64,000 nt of DNA from an uncultured Lachnospiraceae bacterium. Lineage in GTDB: Bacteria > Bacillota > Clostridia > Lachnospirales > Lachnospiraceae. A program made the translations under genes and the position numbers. The stretch is taken from the NCBI GenBank assembly GCA_946566685.1, contig CAMNXA010000004.1:1-64000 (forward strand), given 5' to 3'. Positions 3,891-37,768 of the stretch are shown in pieces. The notes below the pieces were generated by a model. That model was not told the origin of the DNA. It saw only the letters and a program-made list of their open reading frames with translations, and did no database searches. Position 1 is the stretch's first letter. Each line of letters opens with the position of its first letter.

Positions 3891-4556
3891 ATGCACTATG
3901 TGACGAGCGATATTCATAATGATAACGTGAAGTTTGAAAAGCTGCTGGGACGTTTGGCTTTGTCGGAAGATGACTGTCTGTATATTTTGGGAGATCTTTT
4001 TGACAGGACGGATTACAATCCGGATCCCGTGGGAGTATATTTTAATGTTTTAAAATTAGGAAATCGATGCAGGATGATAAGAGGAAATCATGATGACTGG
4101 CTGGCCAGGTATATTTTGAAATATTATAAAACACCGGGAAGAAAGCGAAAAAAGCTGGCAGCGTATGAGTATAATACTTTTGCGTTATTAACAGAACGCT
4201 TGACGCCTGTGGATATGATGCATCTGGCAGAGATGATCTTAGCATGGCCTGTGCAGGAAAGTATAGAAATAGAGAGTGTCAAGTATTTATTGGCGCATGC
4301 AATGACATCGCACCCGAACAAGGCGCAGGGGGATGATTATTATATGTGGGGTGAGGGTGATGAACAGGAATTCCTGAACAGTGGGATTGCTGGCTATATC
4401 TCTGTATGTGGGCATCAGAACCAGGGCGGTGGAACCATCTGGAAGAACAGGATAGGAAATGTTTATATCTGTGATTGTGGATCCGGTGATAAAACCGGCC
4501 GCCTGGGGTGCTTATGTCTGGAGACAAAAGAAGAAATTTATGCGGAAGAAAGATAA
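3891..4556 (+). CDS. Metallophosphoesterase, PPP-like (paralogue 3, divergent)
   Basis: 221 residues from the ATG at 3891, the start that aligns with its paralogues; a weak GAGGAATCGGG site precedes it. Motifs: SDIHN (6-10), GDLFDRT (34-40, where the usual final Gly is Thr), GNHD (65-68), a later LLAHA and a GHQNQGG in place of GHT. The metal ligands remain but the second motif and the C-terminal loop are altered, so its substrate may differ from the other two copies. A gap of about 115 bases separates it from paralogue 2. Confidence 0.82.
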   Translation: MHYVTSDIHNDNVKFEKLLGRLALSEDDCLYILGDLFDRTDYNPDPVGVYFNVLKLGNRCRMIRGNHDDWLARYILKYYKTPGRKRKKLAAYEYNTFALLTERLTPVDMMHLAEMILAWPVQESIEIESVKYLLAHAMTSHPNKAQGDDYYMWGEGDEQEFLNSGIAGYISVCGHQNQGGGTIWKNRIGNVYICDCGSGDKTGRLGCLCLETKEEIYAEER

Positions 4557-4601
4557 ATTTGGTGGCTTAAAACCTATTAAAAGCGAAAGGAAATATCATA
4601 C

Positions 4602-5957: not shown

Positions 5958-5966
5958 AAGACGGGG

Positions 5967-5996
5967 TAGACAAGCATAAAATGGTAAGGTTATAAT
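5967..5996 (+). promoter_or_regulatory. Sigma-A type promoter for the NSS transporter
   Basis: TAGACA (5967-5972) and TATAAT (5991-5996) are separated by 18 bases, about 37 bases before the transporter start codon. One mismatch in the -35 box. Confidence 0.65.
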
Positions 5997-6032
5997 AGAA
6001 CGTAATATTATCAAAATTTGGAGGTTGTACTT

Positions 6033-7430
6033 ATGAGGGAAGCATCATCTGATAAAAAATCAGAAAAAAAGGCTGGAATGAGAGGAAAATTTTCCGGACG
6101 GATCGGTTATGTTCTGGCAGTTGCCGGTTCTGCGGTGGGGCTGGGTAATATCTGGCGATTCCCCTATCTGGCGGCGAAATACGGCGGGGGTATGTTTCTG
6201 TTGGTTTATCTGCTTTTGACGGTCACATTTGGATATGTGCTGATCGTATCGGAGACAGCTTTAGGGCGCATGACGAAAAAGGGCCCTGTGGGTGCATTTC
6301 ATTGTTTTGGAAAGGGTCTGCCGTTTCATTTTGGAGGCTGGATCAATGCGGTTGTACCCATGATCATTGTTCCGTATTATTGTGTCATTGGCGGCTGGGT
6401 TCTGAAATTTTTGATTGAGTATTTGTTTGGACATGCAGACATGCTGGCTGGGGATGGATATTTTCCTGAGTTCATCGCATCTTCCGGCAGTGTTGAGTTA
6501 TGGTTTTTATTATTTTCGTTTTTTGTCTTTGCCGTAATCCTGGCAGGTGTGGAACAGGGCGTGGAGCGAGTGACCAAGGTAATGATGCCGGTGCTGGTTG
6601 TCCTGGCTGTCTTTGTGGCAATTTATGTGATGACTCGTCCCGGTGCACTGGATGGTGTCAAATATTTCCTGATTCCAAACTTTAAGGATTTTTCCTGGAT
6701 GACGGTGGTGGCGGCCATGGGGCAGATGTTCTATTCCCTGTCGATTGCGATGGGTGTGCTTTATACCTATGGCTCCTATATCAGCAAGGATGTGGATATT
6801 GAAAAGAGTACTTCGCAGGTGGAGATTTTTGATACGGGGATTGCAATGTTGGGCGGCTTGATGATCATTCCGGCAGTTTTTGCTTTTTCCGGCGGGGATA
6901 TGGCTACTTTGAAGGCGGGCCCTTCGCTTACCTTTATTACGCTGCCGAAAATATTTGCCAATATGGGTGGCGGGACGATTATCGCGATCGCCTTTTTCCT
7001 GATGTTTTTGTTTGCGGCATTAACAAGCGCTATTTCGATCATGGAAGCGAGTGTGGCTACCTTGCAGGATGAACTGCATCTGAGCCGCTTTAAAAGTTGT
7101 CTGATTATGGTGATCGTGACCTTTGTCTTAGGCTCTGCCTCGGCACTTGGCTATGGAGTCTGGGATGGGATCAGGATTCTGGGTATGCAGTTTTTGGATT
7201 TCTTCGATTTCCTGACCAATTCGATCATGATGCCGATTGGGGCGCTGGCCACATGTTTCCTCATCTTGCGTGTGGTAGGATTTAAAAAGATTGAGGAGGA
7301 AGTGGAGATTTCTTCCGCATTTCACAGGAAAAAGCTGTATTACTTTTTCTTGAAATACCTGGCGCCAATCTGTATTGCCATTATACTGCTCAGTTCTATT
7401 GCTAATGTATTGGGGTGGATTTCACTGTAG
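6033..7430 (+). CDS. Neurotransmitter:sodium symporter (NSS) family transporter
   Basis: 465 residues with 11-12 membrane helices. Near the N-terminus it carries the NSS signature around the unwound first helix (GSAVGLGNIWRFPYLAAKY), which lines the sodium and substrate sites. Members import amino acids or related solutes with sodium (LeuT, MhsT, TnaT relatives). The ATG at 6033 was preferred over the upstream in-frame TTG because TTG overlaps the GGAGG ribosome site. It has its own promoter and is followed by an inverted repeat. Substrate not predictable; tryptophan or another hydrophobic amino acid is typical of the family. Confidence 0.92.
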   Translation: MREASSDKKSEKKAGMRGKFSGRIGYVLAVAGSAVGLGNIWRFPYLAAKYGGGMFLLVYLLLTVTFGYVLIVSETALGRMTKKGPVGAFHCFGKGLPFHFGGWINAVVPMIIVPYYCVIGGWVLKFLIEYLFGHADMLAGDGYFPEFIASSGSVELWFLLFSFFVFAVILAGVEQGVERVTKVMMPVLVVLAVFVAIYVMTRPGALDGVKYFLIPNFKDFSWMTVVAAMGQMFYSLSIAMGVLYTYGSYISKDVDIEKSTSQVEIFDTGIAMLGGLMIIPAVFAFSGGDMATLKAGPSLTFITLPKIFANMGGGTIIAIAFFLMFLFAALTSAISIMEASVATLQDELHLSRFKSCLIMVIVTFVLGSASALGYGVWDGIRILGMQFLDFFDFLTNSIMMPIGALATCFLILRVVGFKKIEEEVEISSAFHRKKLYYFFLKYLAPICIAIILLSSIANVLGWISL

Positions 7431-7462
7431 GTGGATATTATGTGTATGCTTCCTTCTACCTG

Positions 7463-7494
7463 AAACTATACAATTTCATCGGAATGTATAGTTT
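7463..7494 (+). terminator. Inverted repeat after the NSS gene, possible weak terminator
   Basis: AAACTATAC (7463-7471) and GTATAGTTT (7486-7494) pair perfectly over nine bases around a 14-base loop. The T-run after it is short, so termination would be weak. An operator is the alternative. Confidence 0.4.
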
Positions 7495-7565
7495 TGCCGT
7501 TCCAGTGATTGACAGGGTTTTAACACAGTGCTATATTTCTTGCTAAATGAAAGAGGTGTTTAGCA

Positions 7566-10067
7566 ATGAATGAACAAAAGGCAAAAAAGGGCGGCAATCA
7601 GGCAATGCTCAAGATCTGCGGGTTTATTGTGGATAAGCGCAATCTGTTTTTCCTGTTGTTTGGGATCTTGATCATTTTTTCAGCCATTTCCAGGAACTGG
7701 GTCAATGTGGAGAATTCTATGTCCCATTATCTGCCGGATTCTACAGAGACGAAGCAGGGTCTGGATCTGATGGAACAGGAATTTATTACATACGGTACCT
7801 GTAATATAATGGTTGCCAATGTGTCGTATGAACAGGCACAGACAATTGGGCGTAATCTGGAATTTATGCCGGGAATTTTTTCGGTGGATTATGATGATTC
7901 GGAGGAACATTATTATAATGGTTCCTCCTATTATAATGTCACTTTTGACTATGACGAGAAAGATGACCGGTGTCTGGAGGCGCTGGATCGTGTCAAGGAA
8001 GAACTGGATGGATATGATTATTATCTGTCCACAACATTGGGGGACATTGAGGCAGAACTGATCGCGGAGGAGATGAATATCATAGTTGTCCTGGTGGCCA
8101 TTGTAGTGGTGACGGTACTTTTGCTTACGTCACAGGCTTATGCGGAGGTGCCGGTGCTTCTGATCACGTTTGTGGCGGCGGCGATTTTGCAGATGGGAAC
8201 CAACTTTATTTTTGGGACGATTTCCTTTGTATCCAATTCGGTTACCGTGGTGTTACAGCTTGCACTGTCGGTGGATTATGCGATCATTCTTCTCAACAGG
8301 TATAAGGAGGAGCATGCGAATCTGGAATCCAGGGAAGCCATCATTATTGCTTTGAGCAAAGCAATCCCGGAAATCTGCGGCAGTTCCATGACGACAATAG
8401 GCGGTCTGATAGCCATGGGCTTTATGCAGTATAAGATGGGGCCGGATCTGTCCATGTGTCTGATCAAATCTATTTTTCTGGCACTGGGATCGGTGTTCCT
8501 GCTGATGCCGGGTGTGATCATGTTGTTTTCCAAGTGGATGGACAGTACAAAGCATAAAAACTTTATCCCGGATATACCGTTTGTGGGTAAGCTGGACTAT
8601 GCGACAAGGCATGTTGTGGCGCCGCTGTTTGTGGTAGTGATCGTGGGAGCCTATATGGTGTCTAAGGATTGTCCGTATGTGTTTGGCGATACAACGATTA
8701 CGCCGCCGATTCAGAACAGCATCCAGAAAACGGAGGAGATGCAGACAGAGAATTTTGGCGCCAGCAATATGGTAGCACTCATTGTACCGGCAGGAGATTA
8801 TGAGAAAGAGGCGAAACTCTTGGAAGATCTGGAGGCCTGTCCGGAAGTGGATTATACCATGGGGCTCACCAATATAGAGGCAATGGACGGTTATTGTCTG
8901 ACGGATAAGTTGACGCCCAGACAGTTCTCAGAGTTGATCGATCTGGATTATGAAGTGGCGGAACTGGTCTATGCGGCGTATGCTGTGAATGATGAAGATT
9001 ATGCGAAGGTGGTCAACGGGCTTCCGGAATATAAAGTGTCTCTGATCGACATGTTTATGTTCGTCTATGAAGAGGTGGAAGAGGGTTACGTTACGTTGGA
9101 TGATGAACTGCAAGATACTCTGGATGACGTTTACCGGCAGATGAATTTTGCCAAGAACCAGCTACAGGGAGAGAATTACAGCCGTATGCTGGTCTATCTG
9201 ACGCTTCCGGAGGAGAGCGCGGAGACTTTTGCCTTCCTCGATAAAATGCATGAGATTGCAGGGAAATATTATAGCGGCAAGGTTTTGGTCTGCGGAGAGT
9301 CGGTGAGCCAGTATGATCTGCAAAAAACCTTTGGACGGGATAATCTGGTGACCAATATACTGTCTATCCTGACTGTGCTTGTGGTACTGTTGTTTACTTT
9401 TAAATCTGCCGGGATGCCGGTACTTTTGATCGCGGTAATCCAGGGCTGTATCTGGCTTAACTTTTCGGTGCCGGCATTACAGCACGACAATATTTTCTTT
9501 ATGTCCTATCTGATTGTCAGCTCAATCCAGATGGGCGCCAATATTGACTATGCTATTGTCATTGCAGGCCGTTACATGGAACTGCGTGAGACCAACGGCA
9601 GGAGGCAGTCTATTATAGATGCCATGAATCAGGCTTTCCCGACAATTATTACTTCCGGAACCATGATGGTGGTGGCGGGGTTCCTGATTGGAAAGCTGAC
9701 TTCCAATGCAGCGATTTTTGGCATTGGAAAGTCCCTGGGACGAGGAACTTCGATTTCTATTTTAATAACCATGTTCGTTCTGCCGCAGATTCTTCTGGTG
9801 GGCGATAAGATTATAGAGAAGACAGCCTTTGTAATGAATATGCCGATCCGCACGAAGAATGCGACCGGGCTGATGAAAGTGGATGGCCTGGTGCGCGGCA
9901 GGATTGACGGTGTTGTGACCGGTACAATGAAAGCCATTGTCAGAGGTAATGTAAGCGCCTATGTGGAGGCCGGTGATGTGACGGAACTTTCAGAAGAAGA
10001 ATATCGTCAGATGGCAGACACGGTGTCTGCGGAATTGGCGAGCAGGGAGGTGGCGGACCATGAATAG
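7566..10067 (+). CDS. MMPL/RND-family exporter
   Basis: 833 residues with RND architecture: one helix near residues 25-45, a large outer loop, a five-helix block, a seventh helix, a second outer loop (about 380-595) and a final five-helix block ending near 755. Both helix blocks carry the repeat-related motif DYAI (VDYAIILLNRYKEE and IDYAIVIAGRYMEL), typical of the proton-relay helices of MMPL proteins. GAAAGAGGTG precedes the ATG. Its stop overlaps the start of the following surface-protein gene, so the two are coupled. This suggests that the exporter and the GLUG-repeat protein act together at the envelope. Substrate unknown; MMPL proteins commonly export lipids or peptides. Confidence 0.85.
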   Translation: MNEQKAKKGGNQAMLKICGFIVDKRNLFFLLFGILIIFSAISRNWVNVENSMSHYLPDSTETKQGLDLMEQEFITYGTCNIMVANVSYEQAQTIGRNLEFMPGIFSVDYDDSEEHYYNGSSYYNVTFDYDEKDDRCLEALDRVKEELDGYDYYLSTTLGDIEAELIAEEMNIIVVLVAIVVVTVLLLTSQAYAEVPVLLITFVAAAILQMGTNFIFGTISFVSNSVTVVLQLALSVDYAIILLNRYKEEHANLESREAIIIALSKAIPEICGSSMTTIGGLIAMGFMQYKMGPDLSMCLIKSIFLALGSVFLLMPGVIMLFSKWMDSTKHKNFIPDIPFVGKLDYATRHVVAPLFVVVIVGAYMVSKDCPYVFGDTTITPPIQNSIQKTEEMQTENFGASNMVALIVPAGDYEKEAKLLEDLEACPEVDYTMGLTNIEAMDGYCLTDKLTPRQFSELIDLDYEVAELVYAAYAVNDEDYAKVVNGLPEYKVSLIDMFMFVYEEVEEGYVTLDDELQDTLDDVYRQMNFAKNQLQGENYSRMLVYLTLPEESAETFAFLDKMHEIAGKYYSGKVLVCGESVSQYDLQKTFGRDNLVTNILSILTVLVVLLFTFKSAGMPVLLIAVIQGCIWLNFSVPALQHDNIFFMSYLIVSSIQMGANIDYAIVIAGRYMELRETNGRRQSIIDAMNQAFPTIITSGTMMVVAGFLIGKLTSNAAIFGIGKSLGRGTSISILITMFVLPQILLVGDKIIEKTAFVMNMPIRTKNATGLMKVDGLVRGRIDGVVTGTMKAIVRGNVSAYVEAGDVTELSEEEYRQMADTVSAELASREVADHE

Positions 10068-13000
10068 ATCGAACAAGTTCGATCGCGAGATCCGCTTTGC
10101 GGACTCGGATAGACGTAGAAATTTTAATTTCGAGATCTGCTTTGCGGACTCGGGTTTGTTTAGGAATTTTTTGAACCATAAATTTTTACAGCATCACAAG
10201 AGAAGGGTATCTTTGATGCTGGCGGTGTTATTGGGTATCATGCCGGTGATAAATGTCTGGGCGGAGGAAGATGAGACTACCGTGGAGGAGGAAGTCACCA
10301 GCGTGGAGGATGCCAATGAGACGATTGATTCTTATAATGATGAAGAGATAGAATGGGAAGAGGTACATATTAAAGATTTGGAAGGTTTGCGGACATTTTC
10401 CAGAAATTGCTGGCTGGATACCTGGTCCCAGAATAAAAAGGTGTATTTGGAGGAGGATATCGTCATCTCTGGCGGTGAGTTCGTGTCCATACCGACCTTT
10501 GGCGGATATTTTGACGGACAGGGACATACCATAAGCGGGCTGGCGATCCGGGATTCGGTGTCATATGTGGGATTGTTCTGCTATACGCAGCCTACGGCGG
10601 TTATCGCCAATCTGAAAGTGGAGGGGACGGTCAGGCCCGCCGGCAAACAGATGGTAGTAGGCGGTATTGTAGGGGATAACAGGGGTATACTGTTAAATTG
10701 CGCCTACGAGGGTATTGTAGAGGGCAACGACTATGTGGGCGGCATCGTGGGTATTAATGAACTCAGCGGCATCCTCATGGAGTGTAAAGTGAGCGGTACG
10801 ATCACGGGGGCGCATTACAGCGGCGGTATTGCAGGACATAATGTAGGCAATATTGTGGGCTGTCTTAATCAGGCAGATGTTAACATTTCTAACGAAGATA
10901 AGGGGAAGTCCCTGGAAGATATCAATCTGGAGGACTACAAGGCAGGACTTTTAAATCCGGAGGATAGTGACAAGGCAGAGAAGGCATCGGCTGTTCAGAG
11001 TAATGTGGATACGGGAGGCATTGCAGGACTTTCCACGGGTATTATACAGGGATGTAAAAATACCGGTACGATCGGCTATGAGCATGTGGGCTATAATGTG
11101 GGAGGCATTGCAGGCCGGCAGTCGGGTTATGTATATGCCTGCGAAAATACGGGTACTGTCTATGGACGTAAGGATGTGGGCGGTATTGTGGGGCAGGCGG
11201 AGCCTTATATTGCGGTGGATCTGTCAGAGGATATTGTGAGGCAGTTATCGGATCATATTGATGTGCTGCATGATCAGATCGGTAAGATGCTGGATGATGC
11301 GGGGAATGAATCCGACACGCTCTCCAACCGGCTGACGGTGATTCAGGACTTTGCTGATAAGGCGTTGGATGATACTTATTTTCTGGCCGATCAGACGGTG
11401 GAGTGGACAGATGGGATGGTGGATTCTGTCAATGAGGCGATCAATCGCTTTGATTATGTGATAGAGGAGACTTCCAAAAACGATGGTGTGATAGATCAGA
11501 GCAAGGATGCGGCCGGCAATGTGAGGGATGCAGCCAAGGAACTGGAAGATATGGTGGATTCCATGGATATCTACCAGTATATGACGCCGGAGGAACAGGA
11601 AGAATACAATGCGGCGAAAGATGCGATGAAGGAGGCATCGGAGAAGCACGCTGAGGATTATGCCGATTATATGAAGGCGTATAAGAATTATTGTATTGAT
11701 ACAAAACGAGTAGAGAGTGAATATTGGAATAACGATGACTTAAACGAACGGGATTTACGGCCGATCGTGGAAGAAGATGGTCTGGATAAGGAGTGGTCTG
11801 GCCCTAAAGGAAGCCCTAAAGACTATATAGGGGTTACAGAGTGGGTACACTGGCTGGGAGCTCCTGATGATATGGACAATGATGATACGGCCTCTTTTCC
11901 TGGAGAAGGCGAGCAGGGCGATCTGGATCAGAAACTGCTGGAAGATGCGGCACAGCTGATGAAGGAGGAGAGGGCTGATGCTGAGCAGGGAGCTTCTGAC
12001 TATGCCGATGAGCAGTATGCAGACCAAAATGGCGGTGATTATGCCAAGGATATGGAACAGTATCTGGAGACTATTTCCGATATCGCCACAAGACATACCG
12101 ATGAGATGACAGAGGATGCCAGGGAGAGTCTTAGTGATGCCATCGGTTCCGCCAAAGATGCCACGGAGAATCTGGAAACGGCAGGCAGTCAGGTTAAGAA
12201 TATTTTTGAAACACTGCGTGAAAAGGAAGACATTGCATTTCCACAGCTGGGAGGCGATTACCGCTCGGCAACGGGCAGTCTGAATTCTAATTTGAAGAGT
12301 ATTTCAGAGAATATGGGATACCTGAATGATGAGATGTCCTCTTCCAGCGATCTGCTGGGAGAAGATCTGACAGATATCAATGACCAGTTCAGTGAGATTA
12401 TGCTGTTATATACGGATGCGCTGGACGGCGTTCTGGATATGGATTATTCCGGTATCTATGAGGACAATTCTCAGGAAAACGCGGAGGAAAGCATCGATGC
12501 TACGATTGCAGACTGTGTAAATGGCGGCATTGTCAGGGCGGATATCAATGTGTCGGGTATTGCAGGCACGATGGCCATAGAATATGATTTCGATCTGGAA
12601 GGCGATGTGACAGGGATAGAGGACGCCAGAGCCAATTCCACCTTCCTGACGAAATGTGTTCTCAGGCAGAATGTCAATGACGGCGCTGTTACTGCACAAA
12701 AAAGTTATGCAGGCGGTATTGCCGGGCTTCAGGAAATGGGTACGATCTTGCGCTGTGAAAATTATGGCAGGATAGAAAGTGAGTCCGGTGACTATGTGGG
12801 TGGTATCGCGGGGCAGTCATTGTCCCATATCACCAATGGTTATGCCAAATGTATGGTATCCGGCGGAGAGTATGTAGCAGGGATTGCCGGCTATGGAAAC
12901 GGTATCGAGAACAGCATTGCCATGGTGAGGGTCAAAGAGGCGGCTGCTTTTTCCGGGGCGATCGCAGGCCAGGTGAATGACGAAGAAGATGTTTTGAATA

Positions 13001-29173: not shown

Positions 29174-30511
29174 ATGATAAATCAAATTTATCTTTTAAAT
29201 ATCACGGTTTCTGGGGTGAAGTGCATTAAAGAGGACGTGCGTCTGGATTTCTATAAAAAAACGATTGATAAGAATTTTAATCCGGAGAAATACAGGGTAA
29301 AAGCCATTTATGGTGAGAATGGTTCCGGGAAATCTGCGCTTATAACAGCGGTGAAGATTTTTCAGAATTTGATGATGCGTACCAATTATCTGATGGAATC
29401 GCAGACACAGGGATTTTTAGATGAAATCATCAATAAATCAACAGGCACATTACGATTTACGTGTGAAATTCTTATTGTAACAGATAAGGAGCAGATTGTC
29501 TTTAATTACTCGTTTTGTTTAGGGAAAAACAATAATGCATTATATGAAATTCAATCTGAAAAATTAAAAGCTAAAAATGGCAATTATCCAAACAATAAGT
29601 ATCAGATACTTTTTGAATGTAAAGAAGGAGAGTTGATTTATATTTCCTGTAATGAGCAGGCCAAAGAAGTCATAGAAAAGGTGACAACGAATTTATTATC
29701 CATGCAGTCATTTATCTATTTATATGTTACCAATATAAAAAAAGTTGCAGTGGAGGGGGAAAAGTTTCTTGATAAGGATTTTTTCCTTTATATGTTAATG
29801 TTTTCTTTTACACCCATGTTCATGAAGATATATATTCCGGCGGAGGATCAACATGAATTGTATTTTCTCAGAAGGAGTTTAAAGGAAGAAGGCATCAAGC
29901 AGAAAGAACTTATGGAAAAACTTTTTGCATTTGAAGAAAGATGGAATGTATATTCCAGTGTAAATCAAAAATATGTACTTAAGGAGTATTATGATAAATA
30001 TAAGCAGAAAGTAGGCCAGTTAACACAATTTATTAAAATTTTCAAACCAGGTTTGGTATCCATAGATATTGATGCCAAGGAAAATGGCGAAGAATATGTA
30101 TGTGACCTGAATCTCAATTATGGTGACTATGTAATTAATAAAGAATTTGAGAGTACAGGGATTAAGAAACTGATCAGGCTCTTTGATTGCTTTGAATCCG
30201 CCAGTACGGGCGGGATTGTGTTTGTCGATGAGATGGATGCAAATTTAAATGATATATATCTGTGCAAGCTGATTGAATATTTCATGTATTATGGCAAAGG
30301 GCAGTTATGTTTTACCACACATAATCTGGATCCCATGAGCGTATTAAAAGACAACAGAAACTCCATAGATTTCTTATCCAGCGATAATCATCTGATTTCA
30401 TGGACATCCAGAGGGAATGCATCGCCGGAAAACTGCTACAAGAATGGGATGATCGAAGATTCACCATTCAATATAGATGCAACGGATTTTGTGGGAATTT
30501 TTGGGGAGTAG
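29174..30511 (+). CDS. AAA (ABC-type) ATPase of a putative defence pair
   Basis: 445 residues. Walker A is IYGENGSGKS (45-54). The Walker B region IVFVDEMDANLND has its catalytic Asp-Glu near 352-353, and FTTHN (about 379-383) is the switch His. This is the ATP-binding-cassette-like AAA15/AAA21 type found in OLD, RloA, AbiEii-independent and PARIS AriA proteins. The long helical insert (about 205-295) between the motifs is normal for them. GAGG lies upstream of the ATG. It is followed after six bases by the RloB/TOPRIM-like gene. Base composition is clearly more AT-rich than the flanking exporter and regulator genes. Confidence 0.78.
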   Translation: MINQIYLLNITVSGVKCIKEDVRLDFYKKTIDKNFNPEKYRVKAIYGENGSGKSALITAVKIFQNLMMRTNYLMESQTQGFLDEIINKSTGTLRFTCEILIVTDKEQIVFNYSFCLGKNNNALYEIQSEKLKAKNGNYPNNKYQILFECKEGELIYISCNEQAKEVIEKVTTNLLSMQSFIYLYVTNIKKVAVEGEKFLDKDFFLYMLMFSFTPMFMKIYIPAEDQHELYFLRRSLKEEGIKQKELMEKLFAFEERWNVYSSVNQKYVLKEYYDKYKQKVGQLTQFIKIFKPGLVSIDIDAKENGEEYVCDLNLNYGDYVINKEFESTGIKKLIRLFDCFESASTGGIVFVDEMDANLNDIYLCKLIEYFMYYGKGQLCFTTHNLDPMSVLKDNRNSIDFLSSDNHLISWTSRGNASPENCYKNGMIEDSPFNIDATDFVGIFGE

Positions 30512-30517
30512 CAGAGT

Positions 30518-31030
30518 ATGGCGATACAAATGATATTGTGTCTGGAAACAAATAAGAGGGCAAATACTGACTATATTTATATTAAAGAAACCCTGGATTA
30601 TCTGTACCAGAAAAGCAATCAGATCAAAATCAGCATAGTGTATATGAATACGAAATCGAAATACTGTTCCGGTGGTGTTTTGAAAGAAATCAGCCGGAAG
30701 ACGAAAGACTATGTACATGGAGAAACCAAGGTTATTTATTGCATTGATACAGATGCGTATGAGAAGAATACCAAACATGCCAAAGAATTTAATGATATTC
30801 AACAATTCTGCAAAGAAAATGGTTATGATCTGATCTGGTTTTGTCATGACGTGGAGGAGGTCTTTTGGGGGAAGAAGGTTCCAGATTCTGCCAAAGTGCA
30901 GGAAGCGGAGGCATTTAGAAGAAAAAAGAAGATTGCAGAAATGTCTGCGAAAGGATTATCAAGCCAGACAATGAAGACATGCCGAAGTAATATTTTAAAT
31001 GTGTTGGATAAATACCTGACAAGAAAATAG
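30518..31030 (+). CDS. RloB/TOPRIM-like putative effector nuclease
   Basis: 170 residues. The order of acidic motifs resembles TOPRIM and RloB proteins: an early Glu (E10, MILCLETNK), a strand ending in Asp-x-Asp (VIYCIDTDAY, D77 and D79), then WFCHDVEEVF (D111, E113, E114) in the position of the RloB NPxFE motif. The C-terminal part is a basic helix pair. In RloAB, PARIS and OLD-type systems the partner ATPase senses infection and the TOPRIM-like subunit cuts nucleic acid (in PARIS, tRNA). The assignment rests on motif order and pairing, not on strong sequence identity. Confidence 0.6.
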   Translation: MAIQMILCLETNKRANTDYIYIKETLDYLYQKSNQIKISIVYMNTKSKYCSGGVLKEISRKTKDYVHGETKVIYCIDTDAYEKNTKHAKEFNDIQQFCKENGYDLIWFCHDVEEVFWGKKVPDSAKVQEAEAFRRKKKIAEMSAKGLSSQTMKTCRSNILNVLDKYLTRK

Positions 31031-31201: not shown

Positions 31202-31927
31202 ATGCATATTAATGAATATAAAATCTTATTAGTAGATGATGAGAAGACGCTGCGGGAAATGGTGTGCGGCTTTTTACAGCGGGCGGGTTTCCATAAAGTG
31301 ATCACAGCGGCGGATTGCAGGGAGGCCAGGGAACGGTTTCATAAAGAAGCGCCACACCTGGTTCTTCTGGATGTGATGCTGCCGGATGGAGATGGGTTCT
31401 CTCTTTTTGAAGACTTGCAAAAAGATTCGGAAGTACCAGTTATATTCCTTTCCGCGCGGGATGAGGACGAGAACAGACTGCGGGGCCTGGGGCTTGGGGC
31501 AGATGATTATATCACAAAGCCCTTCCTGCCAGAGGAGCTGATCTTGCGGGTTAAGGCTGTGTTGAAGCGCGTATATCGGGCGAAGGATATGCGGGAGGAA
31601 GAGCTAGTCGTACTGGGTGCGTGTCGAGTGGATATGGGAAGCGGGGTAGTATATTGGCACAGAGAAGCAGACATCAGTATAGAAGAAACGGATACGGAAG
31701 TTACTCTTACGGCAAAGGAGTATGCCATCTTACAGAAACTGGCACAGGAAAGAGGACGGATCGTGACCATTGATGCCCTGTGTGATGCGGTCTGGCAGGA
31801 AGAAAATTATGGCTATGAAAACACACTGATCGTCCATATCCGCAGACTGCGGGAAAAGATAGAAGAGGATCCCTCTCATCCGAAATACCTTCTGACGGTG
31901 AGAGGATTGGGATATCGGTTGATTTGA
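31202..31927 (+). CDS. OmpR/PhoB-family response regulator
   Basis: 241 residues. Receiver domain (1-120) with acidic pocket VDDEKT, phospho-acceptor Asp in LVLLDVMLPDGDG, Ser in FLSARD and Lys in YITKPF. A winged-helix DNA-binding domain follows (about 140-240, LTAKEYAILQKLAQ and TVRGLGYRL). AAAGGCGGGAA is the likely ribosome site. With the kinase gene 68 bases downstream it forms a two-component system. Its position facing an ABC exporter of the LanFEG/Cpr type suggests sensing of cell-envelope antimicrobial peptides. Confidence 0.93.
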   Translation: MHINEYKILLVDDEKTLREMVCGFLQRAGFHKVITAADCREARERFHKEAPHLVLLDVMLPDGDGFSLFEDLQKDSEVPVIFLSARDEDENRLRGLGLGADDYITKPFLPEELILRVKAVLKRVYRAKDMREEELVVLGACRVDMGSGVVYWHREADISIEETDTEVTLTAKEYAILQKLAQERGRIVTIDALCDAVWQEENYGYENTLIVHIRRLREKIEEDPSHPKYLLTVRGLGYRLI

Positions 31928-31995
31928 GGTGAACACTTAATTCTCAATTGACAATTTGGGGTTGTGGCGTAGAGTGCAGTGAGAGGAAAAGGCAA

Positions 31996-33240
31996 ATGAG
32001 TCTGAAATATAATTATAAAAAAACTATCAGATTATTTCTATATGGAGTCGCCGTACTGGTCATGATCATTTTGCTGGTGGGTGTATTGAACCTTGTCTTT
32101 TTGTTCGTGGGAACTTTTGCGTATATAAATATGGATACGAATTATATTTACGGCGGAACGGTCATGGAGGCCCTTACACTTACTGAAAATGGTTATGTGC
32201 TTTCTGAAGAAATGGAGCAGGAGTTTGCCGAGCAGAATCAGTGGGCGATGCTCTTGGACGAAACTGGACAGGTAATATGGAGTATACGAAAACCGGAGGA
32301 ACTGAAAGAAATTTACACGCAGTCAGATATTGCCCGGATGACGCGTTATTATCTAAATGGCTATCCCGTGCAGCTTCGCGTGTGGGAAGACCGGATCATG
32401 GTGGTGGGGCTGCAAAAGGATGCTGTCTGGAAATATAATTTGGAGTTTCCCATTGCCTGGATGGAGTTTATCAAGAGAATATGGTGGTATTATTTTTTGA
32501 TCAACTTTACCTGGATTGTGGTGCTGGCTTTCTTTTTTACCAGGCGTTATACCAGAAAAAGAGAACAGGCGAGGATTGAGTGGATTTCGGGCGTTTCTCA
32601 TGATATCCGCACTCCTTTATCTGTGGTGATGGGTTATGCGGACACATTGGAGCATGATGAAGAACTGTCGGCAGAGACAAGGCAGCAGGCGGCCATGATC
32701 CGGCACCAGAGTGTGGTGATGAAGGAACTGATCGCGGATTTGAACCTTACGTCCCAGCTGGAATATTCCATGCAGACGCCCAGACGGGAGAAGGTTCGTC
32801 CGGCTGAAGTCATCAGAAATATAGCGGCAGAGTTTTTGAATGATTCTTTACCGGAACAACTGGAGATTGACGCGCAGATTGCACCGGGCGCAGAGGGTGT
32901 GTGTGTGAAGGCGGACAGACAGCTTTTCATGCGGATATTCCGTAATCTGATCAATAACAGCCTTAAACACAGCGGACAGGAAGATATAGTTAAGATTCAG
33001 ATATCCATGTGGCAAGAGAAAGGGAAGTGCCGTATCCGCTATGCAGATAATGGCGTTGGTTATTCCGAAGAGATCCTGCGCGGATTGTGCAGCAGGAAGA
33101 AAGATACATCGGGAAATGCTATTCATGGATTGCAGATTGTGAAGAAGATTATCCTGGCACATGGCGGGAAGATTCGGTTTGGAAACTGTGAGGAGGGTGG
33201 GAGTTATTGCTTGATGGAGATTCGCCGGGAGAGAGGGTGA
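31996..33240 (+). CDS. Sensor histidine kinase
   Basis: 414 residues from the ATG at 31996, which has GAGAGGAAAAGG upstream; a longer in-frame start at 31948 adds 16 residues without membrane character. Two membrane helices (about 14-36 and 160-180) enclose an extracytoplasmic sensor of about 120 residues. HisKA domain with the phosphorylated His in SGVSHDIRTPLSVVMG. HATPase domain with the N-box NLINNSLKH, DNGVGY and HGLQIVKK. No HAMP domain is obvious. Probable partner of the upstream regulator. A leftward promoter in the invertible segment would transcribe antisense to its 3' half. Confidence 0.92.
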   Translation: MSLKYNYKKTIRLFLYGVAVLVMIILLVGVLNLVFLFVGTFAYINMDTNYIYGGTVMEALTLTENGYVLSEEMEQEFAEQNQWAMLLDETGQVIWSIRKPEELKEIYTQSDIARMTRYYLNGYPVQLRVWEDRIMVVGLQKDAVWKYNLEFPIAWMEFIKRIWWYYFLINFTWIVVLAFFFTRRYTRKREQARIEWISGVSHDIRTPLSVVMGYADTLEHDEELSAETRQQAAMIRHQSVVMKELIADLNLTSQLEYSMQTPRREKVRPAEVIRNIAAEFLNDSLPEQLEIDAQIAPGAEGVCVKADRQLFMRIFRNLINNSLKHSGQEDIVKIQISMWQEKGKCRIRYADNGVGYSEEILRGLCSRKKDTSGNAIHGLQIVKKIILAHGGKIRFGNCEEGGSYCLMEIRRERG

Positions 33241-33261
33241 ATTGGGGTGGGTATTAATTTT

Positions 33262-33298
33262 ACCGTCATATGGGGGAATCCCTGTATGGCGGTTTTTT
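33262..33298 (+). terminator. Terminator of the two-component operon
   Basis: ACCGTCATA (33262-33270) pairs with TATGGCGGT (33285-33293, one wobble), then a T-run. It is T-rich on the plus strand only, so it should not stop leftward transcription. It lies just outside the left end of the invertible segment. Confidence 0.75.
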
Positions 33299-33309
33299 AG
33301 ACAAAAAAC

Positions 33310-33335
33310 ATTCGCAGAATTAGGTATTCTGCGAA
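33310..33335 (+). repeat. Left recombinase core-like site
   Basis: After an A, arm TTCGCAGAA, spacer TTAGGTA, arm TTCTGCGAA. Nine-base inverted arms around a 7-base asymmetric spacer. No T-run follows, so it is not a terminator. Confidence 0.8.
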
Positions 33336-33395
33336 AAATAATAACATTCAAAATGAGTTCCTTGTGAACTGTCTGTAACGTATCTATCGTCAATA

Positions 33396-33424
33396 ATTAT
33401 ACTTTACGTAACCCCTTTTGTCAA
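33396..33424 (-). promoter_or_regulatory. Consensus promoter pointing left inside the invertible segment
   Basis: On the minus strand a perfect TTGACA (33419-33424), 17-base spacer and perfect TATAAT (33396-33401). In the present orientation it fires out through the left repeat toward the 3' end of the kinase gene. After inversion it would sit at about 34656-34684, reading rightward into the TnpB-like gene. Confidence 0.8.
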
Positions 33425-33534
33425 TTTCATGGTCTTAACTGATTGCCATTGTCTTAAGGAAATGTCTTCCATGATTAAACACTATGTAAAATTTTGTCGC
33501 AGTTTATACTATTAAATAACATCAATATTATATT

Positions 33535-33556
33535 TATGGTCAAAAAAGTGGTCAGA
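33535..33556 (+). promoter_or_regulatory. Paired direct repeats, possible recombinase arm site (left)
   Basis: TATGGTCA, six bases, TGGTCAGA: the hexamer TGGTCA occurs twice at a 12-base period. The same arrangement recurs at 34681-34702. Tn916-type integrases bind paired direct repeats with their N-terminal domain. Confidence 0.5.
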
Positions 33557-33570
33557 AAGGAGATTTATGC

Positions 33571-34710
33571 ATGTCCAGAAGAGGCGATAATATTAGGAAA
33601 CGGGTAGACGGAAGATGGGAAGGAAGATATCAGATTATATCTGCAACTGGTGAAAAAAAGTATCAGTCGGTTTATGGAAAGTCCTATGGCGAGGTAAAAG
33701 AAAAACTTTCCAATAAGATGTATACGATAAAGAATTCCTCTTTATCACATAGGGGTGAGTCAGATACAAACGCAGTAATGTTATGTGATGGCATCAGGTT
33801 CTGCACTGTTATGGAAGAATGGCTTAATAAAGTAGAAGAAACCAGAAAATACTCTACATATGTTAAATATAAAAATATTTATCAATGCCATATCCAATCT
33901 TTGTTTTTCGATGATATTTTTACTCAGATAACAAATGATTATATTCAAGACAAGGTTACTGCACTGGATGTCTCTGATTCCACCAGACATAGTGTGTTGG
34001 CAGTCATTCGTCAGACACTTCGTTATGCAGAAGAACGGTATGGTTATTCGATTACGCTTATCACAAATAAATCCACTCGTAAGAAAACCAGTTCCGTAGA
34101 AATCATGAACCGGACAGAGCAGGCCAGGCTCATGCAATTTTTACATCAGGACATGAATATCTCCAAGGCAGGTATATTTCTATGCCTGTCTACAGGACTT
34201 CGATTGGGGGAAGTATGCGCCTTACAGTGGACAGACATCGATGCAGAACAAAAACTGCTCCATGTAAACAGAACCGTACAGAGAATCGAAAATAAAGACG
34301 GGTTTACAAAAACAATCCTTTTAGAATCATCTCCTAAAAGTGTATTCTCTAATCGAGAAATTCCCATGCCAGATAATTTACTGCCGCTCCTTATGGAATT
34401 TAAAAGAGCGGGACAAAAATATGTTCTTTGTATGGATAAACCCATGGAGCCGCGAACATACCAGAATCATTTCAAAAAATATCTGAAAATCATAAATGCA
34501 CCAAACTATAATTTTCATACATTGCGACATACCTTTGCTACAAACTGTGTTGACAGTGGCATGGATATTAAGAGCCTTAGTGAAATCCTGGGGCACTCTG
34601 ATGTGCAGATCACGTTAAACAGATATGTACATCCAAGTATGGATACCAAAAGGAAATATATGAATGCCCTCTCGGCAGATTATGGTCAGTTATGTGGTCA
34701 GACAAAATGA
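33571..34710 (+). CDS. Tyrosine recombinase (Tn916 Int-like) inside the invertible segment
   Basis: 379 residues. The N-terminal segment (IRKRVDGRWEGRYQI, about 8-22) resembles the arm-binding domain of Tn916-type integrases. A SAM-like core-binding domain spans about 75-165. The catalytic domain has all expected residues: R211 (STGLRLGEV), K256 (SPKS), H316-x-x-R319 (FHTLRH), H342 (LGHSD) and Y352 (RYVHPS), so the enzyme looks active. AAGGAG lies 8 bases before the ATG. No excisionase, relaxase or other conjugation gene is nearby, so it does not belong to a complete Tn916-like element. Its gene lies between inverted core-like sites, as Hin lies within its own invertible segment. Confidence 0.9.
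   Translation: MSRRGDNIRKRVDGRWEGRYQIISATGEKKYQSVYGKSYGEVKEKLSNKMYTIKNSSLSHRGESDTNAVMLCDGIRFCTVMEEWLNKVEETRKYSTYVKYKNIYQCHIQSLFFDDIFTQITNDYIQDKVTALDVSDSTRHSVLAVIRQTLRYAEERYGYSITLITNKSTRKKTSSVEIMNRTEQARLMQFLHQDMNISKAGIFLCLSTGLRLGEVCALQWTDIDAEQKLLHVNRTVQRIENKDGFTKTILLESSPKSVFSNREIPMPDNLLPLLMEFKRAGQKYVLCMDKPMEPRTYQNHFKKYLKIINAPNYNFHTLRHTFATNCVDSGMDIKSLSEILGHSDVQITLNRYVHPSMDTKRKYMNALSADYGQLCGQTK
34681..34702 (+). promoter_or_regulatory. Paired direct repeats, possible recombinase arm site (right)
   Basis: TATGGTCA, six bases, TGGTCAGA, identical in plan to 33535-33556 although it lies within the last codons of the recombinase gene (Y-G-Q-L-C-G-Q-T). The 12-base period is kept. Confidence 0.5.
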
Positions 34711-34744
34711 AAACCCCGCAAATAAAGGCATAAACATTATAACA

Positions 34745-34770
34745 TTCGCAGAATACCTAATTCTGCGAAT
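34745..34770 (-). repeat. Right recombinase core-like site, inverted
   Basis: Arm TTCGCAGAA, spacer TACCTAA, arm TTCTGCGAA, then T. This is the exact reverse complement of 33310-33335. The asymmetric spacer shows that the two sites are in inverted orientation. Confidence 0.8.
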
Positions 34771-34807
34771 ATCCATCCAATAAGACGGGAGAACAAAATA
34801 CAGCAAT

Positions 34808-36112
34808 ATGCCGCCCAGTACCATATGCAAGACAGTTCATCAATATAACAGGGAACCTATTTCAGAACCGGATATGAAGAAACTGGTGGAGATTGCAAAA
34901 GACTATAGCGAAGTCAAGAATTACGTCTATCAGCGCTATGGCGGCATTAAAAGCCTGCCTAAAATATATCCCGGCTATACAGTACAAAATGAGATGACGG
35001 GCAGTGGGCTGCGGGCAAGACTTGGACTACCATCAGTTTACTTTTATCTGGCTGTATTTGATGCCTTGGGTGACATTAAGAATCAGTGGACACAGATCAA
35101 AAGCAGGATAGAGAAGGGCATTCGCGAAAATGAGAACCTGACACCGGAAGACAGACATTATTTGCGGTTTGTCATGAAGCAGAGCCGATGCTTTGAGAGC
35201 ATTCTTCTTGAGAAAGAAATGATCCTTTCGGACGAATGGAAAAAACCTCTTGAGGAATTGCAAAGGGATGTGGATGAAAAACGCCTGCATCAATACCTAC
35301 GAAGACAGGTGCGAAGACATCTGAAAAAACTGCATACAGATACCGTGGATAGGTTTTCCGTATCCGCGCAGGCTTATCGCTATGAGGAGCATGGAATTTA
35401 TCTGGCTATAAAAGAGAAGAGAAAACGCATATTTATACCGCTTACAGATAATAACCAGTATACCAGCCAGCTAAACATCTGTATTTTTCCGAAGGAAAGA
35501 AATCTTATTATTCATGTGCCAGTGGAGACAAGGATAAAGCAGAATGATAATTACCAGAATGCAGTGGGACTGGCAGTGGGAATCCACACTATGTTTGTGA
35601 CGGATCAGGGCAATATTTACGGGGAAAGATACAGTGACTACCAATATGCGTTGTCCGATTATGTCAGGGAAGGGAATATCAGATACAGCAGAAATAGAGC
35701 AAACAATCCTGGCAGGAAAAAGTATACCGCAGGCAAACGCCGATTAGAGGCTGCTCTGCACACCTATATTAACGCCGAGATCAATCGATTGTTACAGACC
35801 GAACGACCGGCCGTTATCTATCTTCCCAAATTGCCGCAGTCCTCTAAAGCAGGCGTTAACAAAAAGATCAACAATTCCGTCAGTATGTGGCAGAGAGGAT
35901 ATATAAGAGACCGACTGACACAAAAATGCAGAGAACAGTCCATTGAGTTGGTGGAGGTATTCGGCAAAGATATCAGTAATGAATGCAGCCAATGCGGGAC
36001 TATAGGCAAAAAGACAAAAAATATTTTTGTCTGCAATGCATGCGGTGCAAGACTGCCGGAGCGGGAAAACACCGCAAAAAATGCCCTCAAAAGAGGACAG
36101 GTGAATCAATAG
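34808..36112 (+). CDS. TnpB-like protein with degenerate RuvC site (candidate nuclease-dead RNA-guided regulator)
   Basis: 434 residues with a TnpB/OrfB fold: a helical N-terminal part (1-190), a beta-rich middle, RuvC-like segments and a zinc ribbon (C393-x-x-C396 and C409-x-x-C412). By my alignment the three RuvC acidic residues are replaced. The GxDxG segment reads GLAVGI (Asp to A256), the IxxExL segment reads IYLPKL (Glu to P340), and the DRDxNAA segment reads ERENTAKNA (Asp to E420). The rest is intact, so this is not simple decay. Nuclease-dead TnpB relatives (TldRs) act as RNA-guided repressors. No TnpA is present. A GGGAG site lies rather far (about 15 bases) upstream, and no promoter is visible between the right core site and the gene. 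Confidence 0.8.
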   Translation: MPPSTICKTVHQYNREPISEPDMKKLVEIAKDYSEVKNYVYQRYGGIKSLPKIYPGYTVQNEMTGSGLRARLGLPSVYFYLAVFDALGDIKNQWTQIKSRIEKGIRENENLTPEDRHYLRFVMKQSRCFESILLEKEMILSDEWKKPLEELQRDVDEKRLHQYLRRQVRRHLKKLHTDTVDRFSVSAQAYRYEEHGIYLAIKEKRKRIFIPLTDNNQYTSQLNICIFPKERNLIIHVPVETRIKQNDNYQNAVGLAVGIHTMFVTDQGNIYGERYSDYQYALSDYVREGNIRYSRNRANNPGRKKYTAGKRRLEAALHTYINAEINRLLQTERPAVIYLPKLPQSSKAGVNKKINNSVSMWQRGYIRDRLTQKCREQSIELVEVFGKDISNECSQCGTIGKKTKNIFVCNACGARLPERENTAKNALKRGQVNQ

Positions 36113-36224
36113 TTCATCATGAAAAATTTCATAGATAAATAATGTCTGTGGATATTATTTCACCTAAACCGGAATACCGGGAGCAGGACTGTGAAAAATT
36201 TCTTTTGATAAAAACAAACACGGC

Positions 36225-36345
36225 ATTAGAAGCTGGCAAAAGCCAGGTATTGGGTATGCCAAGACCTATGGGAACTCCCCGTGCGGGAGATGTACCGGGA
36301 GCGAAGCGGAATTTCCGCATTACTCGCCAAAGAGTAACCAATATG
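36225..36345 (+). ncRNA. Candidate omega RNA (reRNA)-like structured region 3' of the TnpB-like gene
   Basis: The 282-base gap after the TnpB-like gene has no credible ORF but is dense in short hairpins: CTGGC-AAAA-GCCAG (36233-36246), TTGG-GTATG-CCAA, CTCCC-CGTGC-GGGAG (36275-36289), GCGG-AATTT-CCGC (36306-36318) and TTACTC-GCCAAA-GAGTAA (36320-36337). In TnpB systems the guide RNA scaffold lies exactly here, at and beyond the 3' end of the gene, with the guide following it. Upstream, an imperfect direct repeat (GAAAAATTTC at 36121-36130 and 36193-36202) precedes the scaffold. The RNA ends are not known. Confidence 0.5.
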
Positions 36346-36394
36346 CCTTATTATACAAGCAAATTGAATCGAGCGGCACAGCGGGAAACGGAAG

Positions 36395-37768
36395 GTGGAC
36401 GCGGTGGAAAGATATAAGAAAAAAGACATGTTACAGACAGTAGACATACTGATCAGGGCAAACGATGCCGTCACAAGAACTGCCGCTTCCAACCCACAGG
36501 GGGCAGGGGAGGCACTTGTGCAGTGCCAGGAGTCTGCAATCGTACTGGGAACCTACATAGATACCTTGGACGAAAAGTATGCCCCTCTGGTGGGAACACT
36601 TGAAGATTATTGTGAAAACATTTATCAGATGAGTGAGAATCTGACAGATGAGAACCTTTGCAGAAAGATATCCAAGAAGATTCAGAAACAGCTGACGAGC
36701 CTGCATAACGGTATCAAATATGGTATGCCGGAAGACAGGAAGGAAGTTGTGTTTCTTCCATATAAAGCATCCATGTGGGATTCTCTGGAGAGTGTATGGA
36801 AGGCGGCGGATGATGATGAGAATGCAGATGCTTATGTGATTCCGATTCCTTACTTTGATAAGAACCCGGATGGCAGTTTTAGGGAAGAGCATTACGAGGG
36901 GGATTTGTATCCGGAGTATGTGCCAATCACTCGATATGATGCGTATGATCTTGAGACTCGCAGGCCGGATGTGATCTATATTCATAATCCTTATGATGAG
37001 TGTAATCATGTGACCAGTGTGCACCCCTATTTTTATTCGAAAAATCTGAGAAACTTTACAGATAAATTAGTGTATATTCCTTATTTCATTTTAAAGGAGA
37101 TTGAACCGGACGATCAGGAGGCTATCAATGGCATAAAGCATTTTTGCTTTATGCCGGGGACAATTTATGCAGACCGGGTGATTGTGCAGTCGGAAAAGAT
37201 GCGTCAGATATATATCAATGAATATATTAAGGCGGCAAAGGAAATAGGATTGTCCGGGGAGCATGTGGATCGGAAATTCCTAGAAAAAAAGTTTCTGGGG
37301 CTTGGTTCGCCGAAGATTGATAAGGTGCTGAATACGAGAAAGGAAGATTTGGAGATTCCGGCGGAGTGGATGAAAATTATTGAGAGGCCGGATGGGAGTT
37401 GGAAGAAGATAGTTTTTTATAATACTAGTGTGAGTGCGCTTCTACAGCATGATGAGAAGATGCTTAGGAAGATGGAGTCAGTGTTGGGGATTTTCAAGGA
37501 AAATCAGGAAGATGTCGTGCTTTTGTGGAGACCGCATCCGCTGATTCAGGCAACGATTGAATCTATGAGACCACAGTTGTGGGAAGCGTATCGGAAGATA
37601 AGGGATAGATATATTGAGGAAGGCTGGGGAATTTATGATGATACGGCTGATATGGATCGGGCAATTGTGCTTTCCGATGCATATTTTGGAGATGTAAGCA
37701 GCGTAGTGCAGTTGTATCAGCAGACGGGAAAAGTGGCGATGATACAAAATACGAATACAATAGTATGA
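36395..37768 (+). CDS. CDP-glycerol glycerophosphotransferase-like protein, first gene of the glycan locus
   Basis: 457 residues from a GTG start with GGGAAACGGAAG upstream; an ATG at 36428 is the alternative. N-terminal helical part (1-115), then a GT-B-like fold typical of TagF/TagB-like transferases: VFLPYKASMWDSLESVW, VPIPYFDKNPDGS, DVIYIHNPYDECN and, near the C-terminus, VVLLWRPHPL and LSDAYFGDVSSVVQLY. Enzymes of this group add glycerol phosphate or related polyols to wall or surface polymers. It ends soon after the last motif, shorter than some relatives. First in a 27-kb plus-strand run of glycan genes, directly after the RNA-like region. Confidence 0.75.
   Translation: MDAVERYKKKDMLQTVDILIRANDAVTRTAASNPQGAGEALVQCQESAIVLGTYIDTLDEKYAPLVGTLEDYCENIYQMSENLTDENLCRKISKKIQKQLTSLHNGIKYGMPEDRKEVVFLPYKASMWDSLESVWKAADDDENADAYVIPIPYFDKNPDGSFREEHYEGDLYPEYVPITRYDAYDLETRRPDVIYIHNPYDECNHVTSVHPYFYSKNLRNFTDKLVYIPYFILKEIEPDDQEAINGIKHFCFMPGTIYADRVIVQSEKMRQIYINEYIKAAKEIGLSGEHVDRKFLEKKFLGLGSPKIDKVLNTRKEDLEIPAEWMKIIERPDGSWKKIVFYNTSVSALLQHDEKMLRKMESVLGIFKENQEDVVLLWRPHPLIQATIESMRPQLWEAYRKIRDRYIEEGWGIYDDTADMDRAIVLSDAYFGDVSSVVQLYQQTGKVAMIQNTNTIV

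Follow-up and report, generated by a model that had tools for sequence, protein, structure and literature searches.

A probable promoter inverton carrying its own tyrosine recombinase upstream of a nuclease-dead TnpB-like gene and a surface-glycan cluster in an uncultured Lachnospiraceae bacterium

Overview of the locus

Analysis of a 64,000-nt stretch of DNA from an uncultured Lachnospiraceae bacterium (hereafter the window) indicates that a 1.4-kb segment bounded by inverted crossover sites is very probably a promoter inverton. The segment carries its own tyrosine recombinase and would drive a TnpB-like gene without RuvC catalytic residues (dTnpB), a conserved structured RNA and a surface-glycan cluster. 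The features of the locus are listed in Table 1. We describe below the sites and the content of the segment, the genes that it would control, their recurrence in related genomes and the evidence that the segment is found in both orientations.

Table 1. Positions of the features of the inverton locus in the window
Feature	Position	Strand	Remarks
Response regulator and histidine kinase genes, left flank	31202-33240	+	Locus marker common to L047, L057, L058 and L059
Terminator-like hairpin and T run, between kinase gene and left site	33262-33293	+	Consensus match only
Left crossover site	33311-33335		TTCGCAGAA-TTAGGTA-TTCTGCGAA; within 26-nt inverted repeat starting at 33310
Perfect sigma-A-type promoter TTGACA-N17-TATAAT	33424 to 33396	-	Inside segment, divergent from recombinase
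Paired GGTCA motif near promoter end	33534-33556	+	Proposed arm-type recombinase site
Tyrosine recombinase, 379 aa	33571-34710	+	Pfam Phage_integrase 2.5e-27
Second paired GGTCA motif	34680-34702	+	87 nt from other segment end
Right crossover site	34745-34769		TTCGCAGAA-TACCTAA-TTCTGCGAA; within 26-nt inverted repeat ending at 34770
TnpB-like protein without RuvC catalytic residues (dTnpB)	34808-36112	+	First gene downstream of segment
Conserved structured RNA, omegaRNA-like	36220-36353	+	Conservation starts right after dTnpB stop (36113)
Conserved RNA 3' end ATATGCCTTATTA	36341-36353	+	Around/after end of CCAA pseudoknot strand; candidate guide
Protein G	36395-37768	+	No Pfam family; weakly GT-B-like fold (pLDDT 70.5, TM-scores 0.3-0.4)
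Surface-glycan biosynthesis cluster	37805-62319	+ (all genes)	Some genes without family match

Crossover sites and content of the segment

The two ends of the segment are 26-nt repeats that were claimed in a sequence-only reading of this DNA to be exact reverse complements; this proved correct on checking, with 1,409 nt between them, and the layout claimed for the sites, with 9-nt arms on both sides of a 7-nt centre, is present at both. A chance repeat was rejected, since the longest exact inverted repeat with copies less than 6 kb apart measured 26 nt in the window compared with 14-16 nt in 12 dinucleotide shuffles of it. The exact 9-7-9 motif occurs solely at these two places in the own genome assembly (3.9 Mb in 115 contigs, 94.8% complete). 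When up to two mismatches were allowed, the site was found in 14 of 61 genomes (the own genome and 60 relatives), whereas a reversed control pattern was found in two of the 61, with one match each.

To compare the centres among loci, site pairs were picked by their arms only, and the centres were not used in the selection. Exact reverse-complement centres were found in 32 of the 38 pairs and direct centres in none, and each of the remaining six pairs includes one site with four mismatches. The 32 pairs contain 25 distinct 7-nt centres. A centre that varies across loci and matches inside each locus is what strand exchange needing overlap homology demands. As in promoter invertons, the recombination sites of the window are inverted and their centres are identical in inverted orientation.

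The recombinase gene is the only gene recognised between the sites, in agreement with the earlier claim of a lone intact tyrosine recombinase. The R, K, HxxR, H and Y motifs, which we take to be the active-site residues of tyrosine recombinases, were all found in the protein, and among solved chains it is closest to the Int protein of 6en0 (E 7e-14), presumably the Tn1549 Int. The Pfam and 6en0 matches assign the enzyme to the tyrosine class, and a relative of Hin was consequently rejected, as the enzyme is not a serine invertase of the Hin/Gin kind. Other frames of at least 30 aa inside the segment overlap the recombinase gene, are shorter than 42 aa and lie in the non-coding ends, or enter from outside on the minus strand (32848-33393, 181 aa; 34690-34830, 46 aa). 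The position that had been predicted for the recombinase gene in the flipped state (33370-34509, minus strand) is arithmetically right. The recombinase was detected at E 1e-60 or better in 13 of the 61 genomes (own and 60 relatives). No relatives of it were found in the viral contigs, and 44 records of a phage GenBank collection match it with a best identity of 40%.

Two paired GGTCA motifs were also identified, one near the promoter end of the segment and one near the other end. The paired motif is present in 27 of 30 segments and in none of 600 base-shuffled ones, and in 18 of the 30 segments one pair lies 83-87 nt from a segment end. Tn916-type integrases use arm-type sites in addition to core-type sites, and by analogy we propose that the GGTCA pairs may be arm-type recombinase sites. 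Shorter segments of about 0.4 kb, one of them on contig C1 of the own genome, are free of the recombinase and retain both sites and the promoter; where the sites are similar and GGTCA motifs are present, inversion probably depends on a recombinase acting in trans. Additional genes are present in some segments or remnants, such as a gene of the Uma2 family (L047), a similar frame (L058) and a repeated frame (L060), as if the segment were collecting cargo.

Promoter and flanking regions

The perfect promoter inside the segment is the only one on both strands of the 64-kb window, where 0.025 would be expected, while weaker promoter-like matches nearby are at chance level (eight compared with 9.4 in shuffles). 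Near one end of the segment, the promoter is perfect in 21 of 31 segments and has one mismatch in two of them; the other eight have neither a perfect nor a one-mismatch copy near an end. Sixteen of those 23 promoter-bearing segments have a recombinase gene or part of one, and the promoter diverges from it in all 16. By consensus, the promoter thus reads outward, as in promoter invertons. In the window it points away from position 34808, and the downstream genes would therefore be OFF.

On the minus strand, the left site matches the consensus of a terminator-like hairpin, the T's of which lie outside the segment. Together with the hairpin that follows the kinase gene, this predicted terminator would insulate the switch, both from the kinase genes and in the OFF state. 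To the left of these genes (29174-31030), an AAA-ATPase gene with an AbiLi-like profile match (8.7e-37) is followed by a small gene that fits no family of Pfam or PADLOC; the two, next to the switch, may form an abortive-infection pair.

Genes and RNA downstream of the segment

The dTnpB protein contains a Cas12f1-like TNB domain according to Pfam and scores 51 bits against the NCBIfam guided_TnpB model (cut-off 100). A profile built from 14 dTnpB relatives matched Cas12f, Fanzor and TnpB chains, mostly in the C-terminal part (best 2.4e-8). The AlphaFold model is poor (pLDDT 55), and its 13 fold matches with E ≤0.001 all belong to the Cas12f/TnpB/Fanzor superfamily, with TM-scores of only 0.2-0.3. 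The label Cas12f given by PADLOC was taken as superfamily similarity only.

The RuvC-I aspartate is absent in all 43 dTnpB sequences, which have A, S, H, Y or N instead, and the RuvC-III (last) aspartate, placed by alignments, is replaced by R, K or A in all 42 aligned dTnpBs. There is also no glutamate at residues 337-343 of dTnpB. We take these three positions to be those of the TnpB catalytic residues. The four zinc-ribbon cysteines are retained in 42 of the 42 aligned sequences. This combination of TnpB homology with lost RuvC catalytic residues is that of a TldR. With an E limit of 1e-30, the gene was found in 24 of 77 genomes of the genus and nine of 299 of the family; its sole match in the phage GenBank collection is a distant transposase-like gene of one phage, represented by two records.

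The structured RNA was analysed in 20 of the 28 distinct aligned RNAs (those of L083, L121 and L125 were trimmed; those of L043, L081, L084, L085, L118, L119, L122 and L123 were left out). The 20 sequences support a structure of 28 pairs in which 98.4% of the cells are paired, with 82 double-change cells compared with 24.9 in shuffles and 5-18 when the partner was slid. The pseudoknot strands TTGG/CCAA are invariant in this set. In distant loci the strands change together, as judged by eye: ATCGG/CCGAT in L124, TTAG/CTAA in L087 and L129-L131, AATAG/CTATT in L086 and GCTT/AAGC in L133 and L134. By the same inspection L079 misfits and the group of L051, L132 and L135 fits poorly. A search of Rfam returned no credible family (best E 1.1, below gathering scores). 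We infer that this covarying RNA is a guide RNA bound by dTnpB.

The candidate position of the guide in the window is ATGCCTTATTA, the conserved end after the pseudoknot strand. Comparison of the RNA 3' end with loci of the same genome, carried out for part of the rows and with uncertain guide boundaries, revealed no convincing target. Neither did a search of the own genome with the 13-mer of the RNA end (up to one mismatch), which returned 13 places compared with six for a control pattern: the three exact places are the RNA itself and two inside genes, and two of the one-mismatch places fall in the second dTnpB locus. Within 9 kb on either side of 43 loci, the RNA end gave scattered matches of 10-11 out of 12 with no consistent place, and no target was found at six loci of the Flagellin_N family. 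For the other RNA group, six genomes yielded 16 matches (control pattern, 0) and no target; seven are the RNAs themselves and the remaining nine all lie within stop-free frames of 127-1004 codons. As no guide target was found, RNA-guided repression by dTnpB is something that we infer. A small tyrosine-recombinase-like frame (L149, 379-960) was noted by manual reading upstream of a flagellin gene of the own genome.

The RNA is followed by protein G, which has two matches in the own genome, both adjoining dTnpB, and by the glycan cluster. The latter encodes LegB, a nucleotidyltransferase, NeuB, a UDP-GlcNAc 2-epimerase, oxidoreductases, a cytidylyltransferase, methyl- and glycosyltransferases, a polysaccharide deacetylase and a Stealth protein.

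Recurrence of the module

A survey of 44 dTnpB loci, which leaves out two L088 fragments, G394:C20, G395:C10 and G384:C1, showed a tyrosine-type site pair upstream of the gene in 28, a single site in six, only a short inverted repeat in four and neither in six. For two of the 28, L133 and L134, the pair is found ahead of G, which puts it about 1.5 kb upstream of dTnpB. Three of the six single sites lie close to the end of a contig; those of L077 and L082 match poorly, L082 having a short repeat as well, and L085 has one good site and a recombinase, a search for the partner site having recognised none. Of the six loci with neither, L121 is cut off by a contig end within a site, and L122 is preceded by a serine recombinase gene.

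Serine recombinase genes also lie near two of the short-repeat loci (L127 and L157), and these three are the only ones of the 44 with such a gene upstream of dTnpB; none was found within 4 kb upstream of L081, L082 and L128. The short-repeat test was positive in the tyrosine-type loci L126 and L129 too, and a single short repeat is therefore weak evidence. L157 is a piece of a predicted viral contig. In its stretch 4111-11213, a serine invertase gene and a 28-nt inverted repeat with 139 nt between its arms are followed by dTnpB, G, a cytidylyltransferase-oxidoreductase gene and a glycerophosphodiesterase-like gene, the genes being named from reading the translations. Judged by this gene content, L157 is a putative phage version of the dTnpB module, and the invertible promoters in front of dTnpB probably belong to two recombinase classes, tyrosine and serine. 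That the same dTnpB is preceded by invertible stretches of the tyrosine type and, apparently, also of the serine type suggests selection for stochastic expression. Tyrosine-type invertons were also observed immediately before G, cytidylyltransferase and GDPD-like genes in L037 and L038, where the stretch examined has no dTnpB match and the switch would act on these genes alone.

Evidence for both orientations

The sequence-only reading had proposed that the segment inverts and that related genomes be searched for the other orientation, and it counted a lack of flipped relatives against inversion. Flipped segments were found in L057, L058 and L126. The histidine-kinase flank of L057 is 85% identical to that of the window at the nucleotide level over 1,286 nt, and its recombinase gene 86.5%, and the segment is inverted relative to the flank. 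The same kinase flank is present in L058, where the segment is likewise flipped, in L059, which has the orientation of the window, and in L047, which is in the other state and has no recombinase. The L126 segment aligns with that of the window at 80% identity across 1,468 columns, both sites included, and has the opposite orientation to the next gene.

We also asked how orientation is distributed on the dTnpB tree, using 26 rows labelled ON (9) or OFF (17). The ON label needs eight changes, and 327 of 500 shuffles were as low (mean 7.9). The promoter labels rest on consensus; for L079, L085, L087, L124 and L131 the label comes solely from the orientation of the recombinase and for L129 from manual reading, while L043, L059 (same locus as L116), L133 and L134 were omitted. 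ON/OFF changes as frequent as in shuffles indicate that the state is not inherited over these distances.

In addition, the own genome and 60 relatives together contain 17 exact sites, and five of these (four in G034, one in G025) are no more than 2 bp away from a contig end. We read this as the branching of assemblies when both orientations are present in a sample; repeated sites within one genome could also break contigs. Both orientations are thus documented between species, and inside one population only indirectly, through the contig ends. The reverse-complement centres, the flipped relatives, the lack of phylogenetic signal in orientation and the contig ends at sites together make inversion of the segment well supported at the level of sequence comparison. 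This part of the earlier reading stands; it had overlooked the promoter, the GGTCA pairs, the dead TnpB, the RNA and the glycan genes.

Proposed mechanism and alternative interpretations

According to our proposal, the recombinase would bind at the 9-nt arms and at the GGTCA pairs, and strand exchange in the 7-nt centre would invert the segment. As the segment lies in the window, the promoter would read left and leave the downstream genes OFF; after inversion, it would read through the right site and turn ON dTnpB, the structured RNA and the surface-glycan cluster. The switch would be reversible, since the recombinase gene is intact in either state. In the least certain step, dTnpB and its RNA would act as a TldR, an RNA-guided repressor of a competing locus, while the own glycan cluster is ON. 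This is, in our view, the most likely role of dTnpB. The complete scheme, a phase-variable RNA-guided coat switch in which the glycan cluster is ON and a competing surface locus is silenced, so that coats are swapped and not added, is put forward tentatively, and we would sooner expect it to need revision than to hold in full.

The strongest alternative accepts the inverton and denies dTnpB an RNA-guided role, making it a decaying transposon passenger or a structural RNA-binding protein; we give this a substantial chance, if short of an even one. It agrees with the guide searches, which found no target, and with the variation at the RNA end, where the first five positions are, by eye, more variable than positions 6-12, the opposite of a seed. 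Against this alternative, dTnpB retains a long open frame and the zinc cysteines down to 34% identity, a covarying RNA follows the gene in the main group, and the module is also found, next to another kind of invertase, in a predicted viral contig.

We consider it improbable that the segment is a fossil that inverted in the past and is now fixed in the species. Decay does occur in relatives: in L057 and L058 the far site is lost or degenerate and the adjoining dTnpB lost or truncated, so that both may be locked, and in L043 the recombinase and dTnpB genes are both broken. In contrast, the window has identical sites, an intact recombinase gene, a promoter of perfect consensus and both GGTCA pairs, and ON and OFF states are scattered over the dTnpB tree.

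Slightly less probable still is a minimal mobile element, in which an integrase of the Tn916/Tn1549 type lies between its own terminal repeats and the segment inserts and excises with no inversion. Consistent with mobility, the best solved relative of the recombinase is a transposon Int, and the segment of L126, 80% identical including the sites, precedes a dTnpB that is only 53% identical, which implies movement of segments, or their exchange, from one locus to another. A single site with one mismatch was also found in G052, a genome of another family (L017), where no partner or recombinase was recognised. Insertion, however, needs no match of both outer arms, and centres in direct orientation were never seen among the 38 pairs. 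Moreover, no clean empty locus with a single core was recognised among the 44 dTnpB loci, recombinase-free segments keep both sites and the promoter, and the non-coding ends have no recognised excisionase gene or plus-strand frame above 41 aa. A full conjugative transposon was rejected, as the sites are inverted and, as had been claimed, no excisionase or conjugation genes of the Tn916/Tn1549 kind were recognised between the ends.

The promoter inverton that we favour would connect the study of site-specific phase variation with that of domesticated TnpB regulators. The coat of the cell and an RNA-guided regulator are probably switched in concert, and a single flip would, provided that dTnpB represses under RNA guidance, change the surface that a gut commensal displays and, with it, what is silenced. 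Recombinase, 25-bp sites and paired motifs all fit into 1.4 kb, and this self-contained tyrosine system is compact enough for work in laboratory strains.

Comparison with known systems

In the part of the literature covered, we found no report joining a tyrosine-recombinase inverton, a dead TnpB and a glycan cluster; earlier TldR/TnpB surveys may mention the clade. The integrases of Tn916 and Tn1549 resemble the recombinase of the window in sequence and, by analogy, in the use of core and arm sites, whereas those elements differ from it in their conjugation and excision genes, none of which is recognised inside the segment, and in having direct sites where those of the window are inverted.

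The Hin switch of Salmonella shares with the window an invertase gene inside an invertible promoter segment. Hin is a serine recombinase, and a protein repressor, which is not RNA-guided, silences the alternative gene. The window differs from Hin in recombinase class and in its sites. In the haloviruses phiCh1, phiH1 and ChaoS9, the tyrosine recombinase Int1 lies inside an invertible tail-fibre region; this module swaps tail-fibre coding sequence, with no promoter switch before a dead TnpB (PMC6471424).

Promoter invertons are known from the RecV switches of C. difficile (PMC5903667) and from an inverton catalogue of gut strains (PMC11892184). These papers describe short inverted repeats, invertible stretches adjoining surface or regulatory genes and tyrosine recombinases, as in the window (PMC5903667, PMC11892184). 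The recombinase in most cases lies close to its switch and only now and then inside it, with Hin named as the example (PMC5903667). The window differs from these gut invertons in the recombinase inside the segment, in the conserved paired motifs and in a first controlled gene that is a dead TnpB with its RNA.

The closest published parallel is found in the csrA-linked TldRs of gut Firmicutes, where hin lies upstream and promoter inversions span about 120 bp (PMC13418256). In both cases an invertible promoter precedes a nuclease-dead TnpB regulator in gut Firmicutes, and several loci can occur per genome in one strain (PMC13418256). The csrA-tldR system uses a serine invertase and a FliA-dependent promoter, involves csrA and flagellin, and has guide targets that were shown (PMC13418256). 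The window, in contrast, has a tyrosine recombinase inside a 1.4-kb segment, a sigma-A-like promoter, a glycan cluster and target searches that were negative.
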